The notes under the pieces are model-generated. The model was given only the letters and a program-made list of their open reading frames with translations, was not told the DNA's origin and made no database searches. 58,478 nt of DNA from Chloroflexota bacterium (GTDB lineage: Bacteria > Chloroflexota > Anaerolineae > Anaerolineales > Villigracilaceae), in the NCBI GenBank assembly GCA_005778035.1, contig SXKT01000017.1, positions 1 through 58,478 on the forward strand. Direction: 5' to 3'. Position 1 is the stretch's first letter; each line of letters opens with the position of its first letter. The translations under genes and the position numbers were made by a program. This document shows, one piece after another, positions 15,375-23,310 of this stretch.

Positions 15375-16043
15375 ATGTCCGTAAAAATTCTTCTTGTCGA
15401 TGATGAGCCTTCCATCTTAACGCTTGTTAAAGCCTACTTGGAGCCTGAAGGTTACCAGGTCATTACTGCTTCGGATGGTCCAAGTGGGGCGCAAGCCATA
15501 TTGCGTGAAAAACCCAACCTGGTAGTTTTGGATGTAATGTTGCCAGGTATGGATGGTATAGAAGTGCTAAGCAAGATCCGGCGGGAGACGGATGTGTATG
15601 TGATCCTGCTTACAGCCCGTACTGAAGAAACAGACAAAATTGTTGGATTGTCGATCGGTGCGGATGATTATGTAACCAAACCGTTTAGCCCACGCGAATT
15701 GGTTGCGCGCATTAAAGCTGGCTTGCGCAGGCAAGGTGCCAACGCAACTGTGGGTTCCGAGCGCCTTCAATTTGGTGATCTGGTTATTGATGCTGTGTCT
15801 CATACCGTCAGCGTAGCGGGTGAAATGGTGGAGCTGACTGCCATTGAGTTTAATCTGTTGCTGGCATTAGCCCAAAGCTCAGGCAGAGTGTATAGCCGAG
15901 AACAACTGCTGGAAAAAGTTTGGGGTGGTTCATATTACGGAGAAATTCGAGTCGTGGATGTCCATTTGGGGCACATTCGGCAAAAAATTGGTGGTGCTTA
16001 CATCACCACTGTGCGGGGAGTTGGATTTCGATTCGAACCATGA
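15375..16043 (+). CDS. OmpR/PhoB-family response regulator
   Basis: Receiver VKILLVDDEPSILTLV...LDVMLPGMDGIEVL; winged helix SREQLLEKVWG...VRGVGFRFEP. Confidence 0.95.
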   Translation: MSVKILLVDDEPSILTLVKAYLEPEGYQVITASDGPSGAQAILREKPNLVVLDVMLPGMDGIEVLSKIRRETDVYVILLTARTEETDKIVGLSIGADDYVTKPFSPRELVARIKAGLRRQGANATVGSERLQFGDLVIDAVSHTVSVAGEMVELTAIEFNLLLALAQSSGRVYSREQLLEKVWGGSYYGEIRVVDVHLGHIRQKIGGAYITTVRGVGFRFEP

Positions 16044-17185
16044 AAACGATCAGGGATCATTTGTTTGCTAAGTTATTGCTCTCTTACGTGGCGGTGATCG
16101 CGATGGGGGCTATCGTATTGGTGGCTGCGGCCTTATTAATGACGCCGAGAGTATACCAACGCCATATGGACATAGGGGGTGCATTGATCCAAACAACCCC
16201 TGGGCAGCCCAACATCATGAGAAACATGATGACCGAGCGAAATCGCAGCGTAAGCAACTTTCGTGCCGGGTTGTTAGACGCAATAGGCTGGTCTTTGTTG
16301 GTCTCTGGTGTTGCGGCTTTTGGAATTAGTATTTTCTTTAGCCGGCAAATTTTACGGCCTTTGGATAAATTAAACGAAATAACCCGACAAATTGCTAATG
16401 GAGATTATGGCCACCGTTTGCAAGTTGAAGGGGGCGACGAGTTCGCGCGTCTTGCTGCCAATGTGAACGCAATGAGTGATAAGTTACAAAACGTGGAAGA
16501 GACTCGTATACGTATGATCGGTGATATTAGCCATGAATTACGCACACCTCTGACAATTTTAGGTGGTTATGTTGAGGGAATGGCTGACGGAGTGGTTGCG
16601 CCCAGCCGAGACAATTTGGACCTGATGGGCAGAGAAACTGCCCGTTTAACTCGATTGGTGGGTGAATTGCAAGAACTCAGCCGAGTTGAAAGTGGTGATT
16701 CAACTTTCCACAAAAGCCCGATAGGTTTGGTATCTTTGGTAATGGAGGTATGCCGCCAATTGCAACCACTGTTTGTTGACAAACAAGTAGTGCTCGATGC
16801 TCAGCCATTAGCAACCCAATCGGAATTGGTAGTATCGGCTAATACAGACAAGTTGACCCAGATTTTTACTAATCTATTGGCAAATGCATTGCAGTATTCG
16901 CCAGCAGGAAGCAGAGTGTTGTTGCGAGTAATTGAGCAGGATAAGATGGCGATCGTAGATATTATCGACCAGGGTGTTGGTTTACAGCAGGACGATGTGT
17001 CAAAAGTATTTGAGCGCTTTTACCGGGTTGATCGCTCTCGAGCGAGGAATGGGAGCGGAAGTGGAATTGGTCTTTCAATTGCCCGGGCCTTGGCGCGTCA
17101 ACACGGTGGCGAGATCAGCGCAAGTAGCGCTGGGTTAGGAAAGGGAAGCACCTTCCGGGTTTCTTTGCCGATTGGTAGCGAATAA
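16040..17185 (+). CDS. Sensor histidine kinase
   Basis: HAMP region, H-box ISHELRTPLTILGGYVEG, N-box IFTNLLANALQYSP, GSGIGLSIARALARQHGG. Start overlaps the RR stop (ATGA). Confidence 0.93.
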   Translation: MKTIRDHLFAKLLLSYVAVIAMGAIVLVAAALLMTPRVYQRHMDIGGALIQTTPGQPNIMRNMMTERNRSVSNFRAGLLDAIGWSLLVSGVAAFGISIFFSRQILRPLDKLNEITRQIANGDYGHRLQVEGGDEFARLAANVNAMSDKLQNVEETRIRMIGDISHELRTPLTILGGYVEGMADGVVAPSRDNLDLMGRETARLTRLVGELQELSRVESGDSTFHKSPIGLVSLVMEVCRQLQPLFVDKQVVLDAQPLATQSELVVSANTDKLTQIFTNLLANALQYSPAGSRVLLRVIEQDKMAIVDIIDQGVGLQQDDVSKVFERFYRVDRSRARNGSGSGIGLSIARALARQHGGEISASSAGLGKGSTFRVSLPIGSE

Positions 17186-17254
17186 AACTTGCAATCCACT
17201 TAAAAGTCCGCCAGGTATATTGAAACCCAACGTACGCAATGATATAAAGAAAAT

Positions 17255-17356
17255 GCACTACGATAAAGAGTCAAACCAATGAAAATTGGCGACGCAAAAC
17301 CAAGGACCTAAAATGTTGGCACCAACATAATGGTAGCCGGGTTACCGATAATGGCG
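17255..17356 (+). ncRNA. c-di-GMP-I (GEMM-I) riboswitch aptamer
   Basis: AGTCAAACCAAT-GAAA-ATTGGCGACGCAAAACCAAGGACCTAAAATGTTGGCACCAACATAATGGTAGCCGGGTTACCGATAATGG. It has the GAAA-tetraloop hairpin, GACGCAAA core, CCTAA/TAATGG receptor-like segments and a GTAGCCGGGTTACCGA 3' core, and aligns closely with the V. cholerae Vc2 aptamer pattern. Confidence 0.88.
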
Positions 17357-17430
17357 CTTCAGGTGAAAATCTGAAATGCAGGGAGTTGATCCTAAAACCG
17401 ATTGCATGCCTGGTTATGGAAAAATTTCCA

Positions 17431-17525
17431 CCGAAACGTAAAACCACTGCGAAGTGGCGACGCAAAGTTATGGATCTTTTCCCAGCTTCGTTCTGGAAAA
17501 GACCGCCAAACTACCGAATAGTGTG
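17431..17525 (+). ncRNA. Second, divergent GEMM-I-like aptamer
   Basis: AAAACCACT-GCGA-AGTGGCGACGCAAAGTTATGGATCTTTTCC...GGAAAAGACCGCCAAACTACCGAA: GNRA hairpin, GACGCAAAG core, AGTT/AACT pairing and terminal CTACCGAA. Confidence 0.65.
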
Positions 17526-17530
17526 ATTTT

Positions 17531-17576
17531 CCAGCCGACGGACCTCGATTGAGGGGTATTCCGCCGGCTGGTTTTT
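17531..17576 (+). terminator. Intrinsic terminator directly 3' of the tandem riboswitch-like region
   Basis: CCAGCCGaCGG ... CCGcCGGCTGG followed by TTTTTT. Confidence 0.8.
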
Positions 17577-17587
17577 TCATTCTAAAA

Positions 17588-17616
17588 ATACGGCCCCAAA
17601 TAATTTGGGGCCGTAT
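17588..17616 (-). terminator. Intrinsic terminator for the minus-strand XDH-family operon
   Basis: ATACGGCCCCAAA-taa-TTTGGGGCCGTAT, 13-bp stem; TTTTTAG on the minus strand. Confidence 0.85.
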
Positions 17617-17634
17617 CGGTTGATCGGTTCGGAA

Positions 17635-19839
17635 CTAAATTTTGCCGAGGTGCTTCAGAACTACTTCGGGTGTCAACGGAAATTGATTGATCCAAACTCC
17701 TGTTGCATCATGCACTGCGCTAATAACCGCTGGCGCATAGGGCAAATAAGGTAGTTCACCCAAACCACGTGCGCCAAACGGGCCGCGGTCATCGGGAACT
17801 TCTATCACCACGGAGGTGAGCTTTTTGGGAATATCGCGCACGGTGGGGATCAGGTAAGTACTCAATTTGTCGGTCAGTACGTAACCATCCTTGGTGATGA
17901 AATTCTCCATCATAACGTACCCTTGGGCCTGGACAGCTCCGCCTTCAATTTGTCCTTCTACCAAATTTGGGTTGATCGCTTTGCCAACATCGTTGGCGCT
18001 GATCATTTCCAAAACTGTCACTTCACCGGTCTCGGTATCTACTTCCACTTTACATGCCTGCGCAACGTAAGCGTATGCAAAATTGGGCTCGCACTTGCCT
18101 GTCTCTTTGTCAAAGGGTGTGGTTGGCGGGGCAAAATATGTGTACTCGGCAGTGGCGGGGCGGTCTTCCTTATCCCATGCCTGGCGAGCAAGCTCGGCAG
18201 CACCTTTGATGGCGTTGCCAGACATAAAAGTAAGCCGGCTTGCGGACGCAGAACCAGCGTTACCCATGCCCTGGGTATCCATGACAATCATTTCGACGTT
18301 TTTGAATGGAACACCGCTTATTTCGGCTACCATTTGCGCCAAAATTGTGTGATTTCCCTGGCCAACCTCTGCAGAGGCAATCCAAACGCGAGCTTTTTCC
18401 GGGTTGCCGTTTCCGCTGATCTCTACTTTTGCCCAGCAGTTATCTTTATACCCAAAACTAAAACCAACATTTTTAAAACCACAGGCCATTCCATATCCTG
18501 TCTTCACGGGGTTGTTGTGCGCGTGGGTGGCAGAAGGTTTTCGAGAATAGACACCATCAACCCGCTGCCAATCTGCCCGATTCACAGCTTCTTCTATCAC
18601 TCTGTCGATGGAGATTGGGCCGACTGGTGGTGATTGCACATTGAGGGTTTGGCCTGGCTTTAGTGTATTTCGTAACCGAAAATCCACCTCATCCAAACCC
18701 AATTTTTCGGCCAATTTGCTCATTTGCATTTCAGCCATAAAGGCTGCTTGTGGAGCGCCGAAACCGCGGAAGGCTGCGCCTGGAACATTGTTGGTATACA
18801 CGCCGATCACATCTGAGTAGAAATGGGGGATGTAATAAGGCCCGCTTTGCGTTATGGTTGCATTTCCCAAAACCTTGTTGCTTGTGTACATATAAGCGCC
18901 GCCATCGGCGATGATGGTGGTTTTGGCTGCAAGCACTTTGCCATCTTTATTGGCACCCCATTTGGCTTTGATCACCATTTGATGTCTTTTTCCGTGCCCG
19001 AACATTGATTCAGGTCGGGTCCATACGATTTTGACGGGTCGGTTTAGCTTGGTGGCAGCCAACGCCAAAACGATCTGAACGCTCATGTCTTCACGCCCAC
19101 CGAATGCTCCACCAATGACGGGGTAAATGACGCGCACTTTTTCGAGCGGCAGGTCTAAGCTATGGGCTATCTGTTTTTGGTCGGTGTGTGTCCATTGGCC
19201 AGCGGCTTTTACTGTCACAATACCGTCATCCATGTAAGCCAAGCCGGCTTCTGGTTGAAGGTAAACATGCTCTTGCACCGGAACATGGTATGTATCTTCC
19301 ACGATCACATCACACTGGTTAAATCCTTCATCTACATTTCCCTTGCGGATCTTATCCCATACGCAGATGTTGGTATTGGCGATGTGTGGGTGAAGCAGGG
19401 TAGCACCGTCCTTCATGGCTTCCTCTGGGTCGGTCACCACGGGCAGATCTTGGTACTCAACCCGGATCAGCGAGCGGGCATGTTCAGCGATCTTTTCGGT
19501 TTCAGCTACAACCAAGGCAACTTGATCGCCAACGAATCGGACGATGTCGCCGCCTTCCTTGGTGCTGCCCGGCCCACACAATACTGGCTGGTCGTTCCAC
19601 TGCAATCCATATTCATTCAAGGGTACATCTTTTGCGGTAAAAATTGCCACGACACCGGCTACATCTTCGGCTCTGGAAGTATCAATCGAGAGCACTCGAG
19701 CGTGTGGCCTGCCGGCAAAAAGGATCTTCATATGCAACATGCCTGGCATCACCAGGTCACCAGAATAAAGCGCGCTGCCGGTAACTTTTTCGCGCCCATC
19801 GATACGTTTTACGGAACTTCCAACTATTTCACTTGCCAT
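17635..19839 (-). CDS. Xanthine dehydrogenase/aldehyde oxidase family, molybdopterin-binding subunit
   Basis: IGGAFGGREDMSVQ, GAAFRGFGAPQAAFMAEMQ, VGQGNHTILAQMVAE, GARGLGELPYLPYAPAVISAVHDATG. Confidence 0.93.
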   Translation of the reverse strand: MASEIVGSSVKRIDGREKVTGSALYSGDLVMPGMLHMKILFAGRPHARVLSIDTSRAEDVAGVVAIFTAKDVPLNEYGLQWNDQPVLCGPGSTKEGGDIVRFVGDQVALVVAETEKIAEHARSLIRVEYQDLPVVTDPEEAMKDGATLLHPHIANTNICVWDKIRKGNVDEGFNQCDVIVEDTYHVPVQEHVYLQPEAGLAYMDDGIVTVKAAGQWTHTDQKQIAHSLDLPLEKVRVIYPVIGGAFGGREDMSVQIVLALAATKLNRPVKIVWTRPESMFGHGKRHQMVIKAKWGANKDGKVLAAKTTIIADGGAYMYTSNKVLGNATITQSGPYYIPHFYSDVIGVYTNNVPGAAFRGFGAPQAAFMAEMQMSKLAEKLGLDEVDFRLRNTLKPGQTLNVQSPPVGPISIDRVIEEAVNRADWQRVDGVYSRKPSATHAHNNPVKTGYGMACGFKNVGFSFGYKDNCWAKVEISGNGNPEKARVWIASAEVGQGNHTILAQMVAEISGVPFKNVEMIVMDTQGMGNAGSASASRLTFMSGNAIKGAAELARQAWDKEDRPATAEYTYFAPPTTPFDKETGKCEPNFAYAYVAQACKVEVDTETGEVTVLEMISANDVGKAINPNLVEGQIEGGAVQAQGYVMMENFITKDGYVLTDKLSTYLIPTVRDIPKKLTSVVIEVPDDRGPFGARGLGELPYLPYAPAVISAVHDATGVWINQFPLTPEVVLKHLGKI

Positions 19840-22281: not shown

Positions 22282-23310
<1,029 letters not shown>

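Follow-up and report, generated by a model that had tools for sequence, protein, structure and literature searches.

In this study, we describe a locus at which a two-component system gene pair is followed, on the same strand, by a row of three overlapping c-di-GMP-I (GEMM-I) aptamer units, preceded by a promoter-like element, followed by an intrinsic terminator and facing a convergent gene. The window, that is, the whole stretch of 58,478 nucleotides analysed, contains the following features in this region.

15375-16043, plus strand: response regulator (Response_reg and Trans_reg_C domains), candidate regulator of the array RNA
16040-17185, plus strand: histidine kinase (HAMP, HisKA, HATPase_c), directly upstream of the array
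17188-17204, plus strand: direct repeat of CTTAAA type with an 11-nt period, CTTGCAATCCACTTAAA, putative OmpR/PhoB-type response-regulator box
17220-17248, plus strand: sigma-70-like promoter, TTGAAA (17220-17225), 17-nt spacer, TATAAA (17243-17248)
17250-17262, plus strand: 5' strand of the closing helix P0, from the minimum-energy fold and comparison; predicted RNA start about 17255
17259-17349, plus strand: unit 1, c-di-GMP-I aptamer, 62.5 bits, A20 (17269), C92 (17345)
17343-17435, plus strand: unit 2, decayed aptamer, 30.7 bits with the local model
17427-17518, plus strand: unit 3, c-di-GMP-I aptamer, 48.8 bits, C20 (17437), C92 (17514)
17515-17530, plus strand: 3' strand of the closing helix P0, from the minimum-energy fold and comparison
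17531-17577, plus strand: intrinsic terminator, stem 17531-17571 and clean T6 17572-17577, -25 kcal/mol, z -4.05
17587-17617 (about), minus strand: terminator hairpin of the convergent XDH-family operon, -23 kcal/mol, z -5.3
17635-19839, minus strand: molybdopterin-binding xanthine/aldehyde dehydrogenase subunit (XDH family), convergent neighbour, separate from the RNA

The original prediction had placed the array in the 3' region of the histidine kinase gene, which has to be corrected, as the array begins 73 nt past the stop codon at 17185 and lies outside that gene. Its description of what comes behind the array agrees with our findings: the terminator hairpin with its T run is there, the next gene is on the opposite strand with a terminator of its own, and no plus-strand gene follows closely, the next recognised one being a class-II fructose-bisphosphate aldolase gene at 22360.

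In a cmscan of the whole window, the two outer units matched RF01051 with E-values of 6.9e-10 (unit 1) and 1.5e-6 (unit 3), both scores exceeding the gathering score of 35 bits, so that the two GEMM-I aptamers originally predicted are upheld. The sole other Rfam match in the window was a tRNA at 535-607 on the minus strand, and over the array region no other known RNA in Rfam came close to its cut-off. The tandem array itself was correctly seen but undercounted, since a third, decayed unit had been missed. Units 1 and 3 are spaced 168 nt apart, twice the period of the compact arrays of relatives, and a local aptamer model, trained on 41 units from the window and related genomes, found, when this stretch was scored alone, a full-length third aptamer between the two strong ones; Rfam's own model did not list this middle unit at E<=10. 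Unit 2 retains its ends, the GAAA hairpin, the CCTAA...TATGG element and A47, and is without the GACGCAAAG strand and the P2/P3 pairs; it is a decayed, or 'ghost', aptamer. In another genome of the same genus (G005, locus L052), the middle unit is decayed too and has become a different hairpin, with the outer units kept. A coding role of the array was considered and rejected, the ORFs over it being short and no ORF of at least 100 aa recurring across arrays.

For comparison, 61 relatives, 25 genomes of the genus g9 and 20 further genomes were searched, and 38 compact arrays, defined by three units overlapping by a few nucleotides, were compared, one per genome (15 from the 61 relatives, 16 more from g9 and 7 from the further 20). 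As 17 of the 38 come from one genus, the counts given below are not independent, and as the arrays, except those of the window and G005, were chosen for three tightly spaced family matches, the conservation of the units is partly by construction. Left out of the 38 were the array of G024, whose third unit is cut by the contig end, two genomes with two matches in a different layout (G056 and G049) and two with two matches each (G115 and G089); the left-out loci L087, L089, L090, L119 and L120 were also kept outside the ordinary controls and formed a separate group in the pocket counts. The array is carried by 16 of the 37 members of the window's family among the 61 relatives, counting the window, G005 and G024, and the three-match compact form by 17 of the 25 g9 genomes; G006, of the window's genus and listed as 100% complete, has no family match. 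When a model of the junction between units 2 and 3 was run over 298 genomes of the class, only members of the window's family, 5 genomes, gave matches above 100 bits, and the best match outside that family was 67.6 bits, the level of ordinary units. The compact array therefore looks specific to this family within the 298-genome sample. The window's own assembly (1.63 Mb, 64% complete) has three RF01051-family matches, the third of which (contig C86) lies just upstream of a long peptidase-like ORF, as an ordinary riboswitch would.

The signals that surround the array recur with it. In each of the 37 arrays for which 70 nt of upstream sequence are available, unit 1 is preceded at a distance of 7-11 nt by a promoter-like element of the form TTGnnn-N16/17-nAnAAn, with a spacer of 17 nt in 35 of them and 16 nt in 2; the pattern was picked after the sequences were seen, and its margin over dinucleotide shuffles is large (0.8 of 37 expected, at most 3 of 37). 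Further upstream, the repeat at 17188-17204 is the single exact match both in the window, where 1.2 matches are expected with one mismatch allowed, and in the window's assembly. Ten arrays, namely those of G034 and G020 and the 8 of the window's genus, have CTTAAA at a distance of 58-70 nt upstream, in most cases as a direct repeat with an 11-nt period. Direct repeats with this period are used by OmpR/PhoB-type regulators, and the response regulator at 15375-16043 may bind the repeat and activate the array through it. In 26 other arrays TAGAAC is found at -52/-53, a count that excludes L118, where it is at -6.

The two ends of the array pair with each other, with different letters in different arrays: TTGCACTT/AAGTGCAA in G004, TTGCTC/GAGCAA in g9, AACGCTC/GAGCGTT in G111, and a weaker pairing of TGCACTA/TAGTGTG type in the window. 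The mean stem score of this closing helix was 5.99, against 5.00 +/- 0.19 when the 3' strands were exchanged among arrays, and none of 500 exchanges was as good; in a set of 22 arrays that included one array of the large genus g9, the values were 5.80 against 4.73, and once more none of 500 exchanges reached the observed score. At 4-19 nt past unit 3, 38 of 38 arrays have a hairpin of -14 to -26 kcal/mol, with a T run that is weak or interrupted in several relatives. The window RNA folds with -100.5 kcal/mol (z -3.4), and closing helix and terminator coexist in the minimum-energy fold.

Complementarity between aptamer and terminator is the antiterminator signature of a switching expression platform. 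We compared the 3' strand of the aptamer with the sequence downstream in arrays and in ordinary units of the same genomes, L050, L051, L088 and units with too little sequence behind them having been dropped in addition to the loci named above. None of the 38 arrays had complementarity with z below -2, against 20 of 64 ordinary units, and the mean z was +0.42 for arrays and -1.28 for ordinary units (Mann-Whitney p 1.3e-8); the value for the window was -0.9. Because the arrays are without this complementarity, the terminator behind them looks unconditional, as far as can be judged from sequence. Of the two marks of a cis-acting riboswitch, platform coupling and a same-strand downstream gene, the array in the window shows neither.

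The genes next to the array vary, and the RNA persists. Across the 38 arrays the next ORF is on the same strand in 27, on the opposite strand in 10 and absent from the available stretch in 1. Synteny gives a divided answer to the earlier suggestion that the element has no downstream gene: it holds in the window's genus, where the convergent XDH-family gene, with no same-strand target, lies behind 7 of 8 arrays, and it does not hold for the 27 of 38 arrays overall that have a same-strand neighbour. Orientation alone is weak evidence, as an opposite-strand next ORF is also found in 8 of 48 ordinary units. By sequence pattern, ruvB is the same-strand next gene in 16 of 38 arrays, all in genera other than the window's (confirmed by Pfam in G018, the one array checked), and many of these ruvB-linked arrays adjoin a transporter gene upstream, HlyD-like by Pfam in G018 and by eye in the others. 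Within genus g9 alone, unchanged arrays are followed by ruvB in some genomes and by a response regulator or a gene on the opposite strand in others. A histidine kinase gene lies directly upstream in 7 arrays, the window among them, and in G003 a response regulator is located downstream. A synteny search by protein in named genomes returned only two distant histidine kinases. Since the neighbours differ while the same array stays, the array does not track one target, but in the genera with ruvB behind the array it may still act on that gene in cis.

With regard to the ligand pocket, A47, which lies between the two ligand bases, is kept by each of the window's three units and by 113 of the 114 units of the 38 arrays. 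G20 and C92 are the contacts of c-di-GMP. Units 1 and 3 of the window keep C92, but their position 20 is A and C, respectively, and not the canonical G, so that c-di-GMP, the ligand assumed in the original prediction, is only a candidate for the window's array. Numbering follows Vc2 by our own mapping, and position 20 is what we take to be the contact position described for ligand choice. Over the 38 arrays, position 20 is A in 30 and G in 8 copies of unit 1, A in 31, G in 6 and C in 1 of unit 2, and G in 28, C in 7 and A in 3 of unit 3, the C20 of unit 3 being found in 6 arrays besides the window. Ordinary units have G in 54, A in 11 and C in 4 of 69, so that G20 is not universal among them either; against these, A20 is in excess in unit 1 (p 1.6e-10) and unit 2 (p 3.3e-11), p-values that ignore kinship, and no difference from ordinary units was seen in the A20 content of unit 3. 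Counted by genus, A is the sole or most frequent base at position 20 in 8 of the 12 genera for unit 1 (with two ties, g5 and g17) and in 9 of 12 for unit 2.

In the available part of the literature, a G at this type of contact goes with c-di-GMP and an A with c-AMP-GMP (PMC9481103), the contact position being equated with number 20 following PMC9049102, where an engineered G20A/C92U aptamer is reported, in the section available, to have switched its ligand from c-di-GMP to c-di-AMP. Unit 1 of the window has the A20 of c-AMP-GMP (GEMM-Ib) aptamers and may bind c-AMP-GMP. U92 is found in six copies of unit 1 (G001, G004, G005, G010, G020 and G033), all with A20, and none of the 67 ordinary units in which that position is occupied has it. 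The joint occurrence of U92 and A20 was set aside as evidence on its own, as 30 of 38 copies of unit 1 have A20 and six of six is not significant (about 0.2 by simple counting); moreover, the partner of U92 may be the 5' flank of unit 1 and not the ligand. A GGDEF enzyme is encoded in the window's genome. No Hypr (cGAMP-making) GGDEF was seen among the 27 domains read, from 27 of 30 loci taken out of more than 150 matches; all 27 domains keep the Asp that, by structure numbering, is replaced in the cGAMP-making type. With this coverage, cGAMP may still be made by other GGDEF enzymes. DAC (c-di-AMP) cyclases are encoded in 9 of 10 same-genus relatives, and none was found in the window's own 64% complete assembly.

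It is possible that the array RNA has mixed ligand specificity. An extended form of this idea, which we consider rather unlikely, is that the three fused aptamers are tuned to different cyclic dinucleotides and that the free RNA balances or integrates these messengers, in which case A20/C92 units would take c-AMP-GMP, the A20/U92 copies of unit 1 in six arrays c-di-AMP, and G20/C92 units c-di-GMP. If true, it would provide, to our knowledge, the first natural c-di-AMP aptamer on the c-di-GMP-I fold, no such report being among the papers listed in our searches. The A, A, G pattern of the pockets makes natural re-tuning of ligand choice testable with three aptamers, one transcript and three ligands.

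We conclude that the window contains, at 17255-17577 (predicted ends), what is probably a stand-alone non-coding RNA gene of about 320 nt whose product would bind cyclic dinucleotides. Of the four explanations originally offered, the free-standing RNA is the one favoured by the promoter in 37 of 37 arrays, the hairpin in 38 of 38, the closing helix and the lack of any platform sign. The array appears to give rise to a transcript of its own, and ligand binding is expected from family membership. RNA polymerase would start at TTGAAA-N17-TATAAA directly behind the histidine kinase gene, the neighbouring OmpR-type regulator may activate the array through the CTTAAA repeat, and transcription would end at the terminator at 17531-17577, apparently unconditionally. 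The RNA would then fold into fused c-di-GMP-I-type aptamers under one end-to-end helix, with a middle unit that is intact in the arrays of most relatives and decayed in the window, and by bulk binding of cyclic dinucleotides it could act as a regulated buffer or sink. Granted such an RNA, buffering is the most likely job, at somewhat below an even chance, because the array is without an expression platform and a consistent target, and it is given preference because the RNA has no other conserved part. This role would need high expression, and very high expression is also a mark of orphan riboswitch RNAs of the merRNA kind.

The main rival of buffering is a trans-acting role, in which a seed for pairing with messenger RNAs would be exposed or hidden by ligand bound in at least one unit. 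The array's own promoter and terminator, the adjacent two-component system and the putative regulator box are as compatible with such a ligand-controlled small RNA as with a buffer. We regard it as a serious but unlikely alternative, given that the aptamers, the closing helix and the terminator make up almost the whole RNA, and that no conserved unpaired stretch was seen by eye outside the aptamers in the alignments. The stop codon of the histidine kinase gene only 73 nt before unit 1 and the kinase directly upstream in 7 arrays could instead point to a 3'UTR sensor of the response regulator-histidine kinase messenger, acting by ligand-dependent protection or processing of the 3' end; indeed, the sole terminator-like site ahead of the array in a consensus scan is weak and inside the kinase gene, and without an earlier end, the operon messenger would extend into the array. 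The persistence of the array without this gene pair directly upstream (G007, G003 and the arrays behind HlyD-type genes), together with its own promoter, makes this reading quite unlikely.

An ordinary cis-acting riboswitch that conditionally terminates the next same-strand gene, which would have been lost in the window's lineage, would account for ruvB behind 16 arrays of other genera and would match the ordinary GEMM-I units of the same genomes, which precede genes. However, it is hard to reconcile with the absence of aptamer-terminator complementarity from all arrays, with the change of next gene behind an unchanged array within g9, and with the joint formation of terminator and closing helix in the window's fold, so that we consider it improbable. 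Equally improbable is that the array is a once functional element now decaying in the window's lineage: the pocket of unit 2 is lost in the window and in G005, and the window has C20 in unit 3 and A20 in unit 1, but the promoter and the putative regulator box upstream, the closing helix, the two outer aptamers and the terminator all remain intact, and the C20 is shared with 6 other arrays. The earlier idea of a relic whose target gene was lost is likewise not favoured, as the same convergent gene, with no same-strand target, lies behind 7 of 8 same-genus arrays and as promoter, helix and the outer aptamers have been kept, and for a control of antisense readthrough into the XDH operon no evidence was found.

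The nearest described RNA to the array is merRNA of Bdellovibrio bacteriovorus, which is, in the available part of its description, 445 nt long with one c-di-GMP riboswitch and no conserved downstream reading frame, proposed as a c-di-GMP reservoir or sponge, and for which no conservation outside Bdellovibrio was found (PMC3627812). By this description, the proposed array RNA would resemble merRNA in being a non-coding RNA built on the c-di-GMP riboswitch with no fixed downstream frame. Unlike merRNA as described there, the array is about 320 nt, with three fused units, a compact repeat and a position-20 pattern, and its promoter, closing helix and terminator are conserved in many genera of one other family. 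Three c-di-GMP-I aptamers in a row are also found in Bc3-5 of Bacillus thuringiensis, where each unit has a terminator platform and the three control the cspABCDE mRNA (PMC4759541); the units of the array, in contrast to that account, overlap by a few nucleotides, share a single terminator and are without a platform signature or a controlled gene. Tandem c-di-GMP-I doublets and triplets are classed, in the part of the review available, under multiple expression platforms with pseudo-cooperative action (PMC9481103), and the known triple systems are, in the parts of the sources at hand, repeated complete switches ahead of genes (PMC4759541; PMC9481103; PMC12452182), unlike the compact, fused array with its one end-to-end helix. 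The c-AMP-GMP (GEMM-Ib) riboswitches of Geobacter are, like the array units, natural pocket variants of the same class, but they are described, in the available text, in transcripts of genes that they regulate, whereas the array fuses A20 units with a G20 unit in one target-less RNA (PMC8835794). In the open-licence literature, we found neither a description of a compact, fused, stand-alone c-di-GMP-I array nor a report of an orphan riboswitch RNA of the merRNA kind outside Bdellovibrio. Riboswitch aptamers are nearly always read as parts of messenger leaders. If the stand-alone reading is true, a conserved RNA gene made up mostly of aptamer, which has its own promoter and terminator and whose upstream boxes differ between gene neighbourhoods, would show that RNAs that bind second messengers are a recurrent device and not an oddity of Bdellovibrio.

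Several minor observations were made alongside. The hairpin of unit 2 is often CCGCC-AAAA-GACGG and not GNRA-capped (in many arrays, e.g. L096-L104), and drift at positions 45, 48 and 49 is nearly confined to unit 2. A second tandem layout occurs in the same family (L075, L077, L078, L081 and L082), in which aptamer and terminator are repeated two to three times with a period of about 160-180 nt, apparently as ordinary serial riboswitches. At L054 (G005:C9), a weak c-di-GMP-I unit with C20 has a DAC-domain cyclase gene about 2.6 kb downstream on the same strand. At L071 (G010:C584), two c-di-GMP-I units lie 1.8 kb apart, the second of which is followed by its own same-strand gene.
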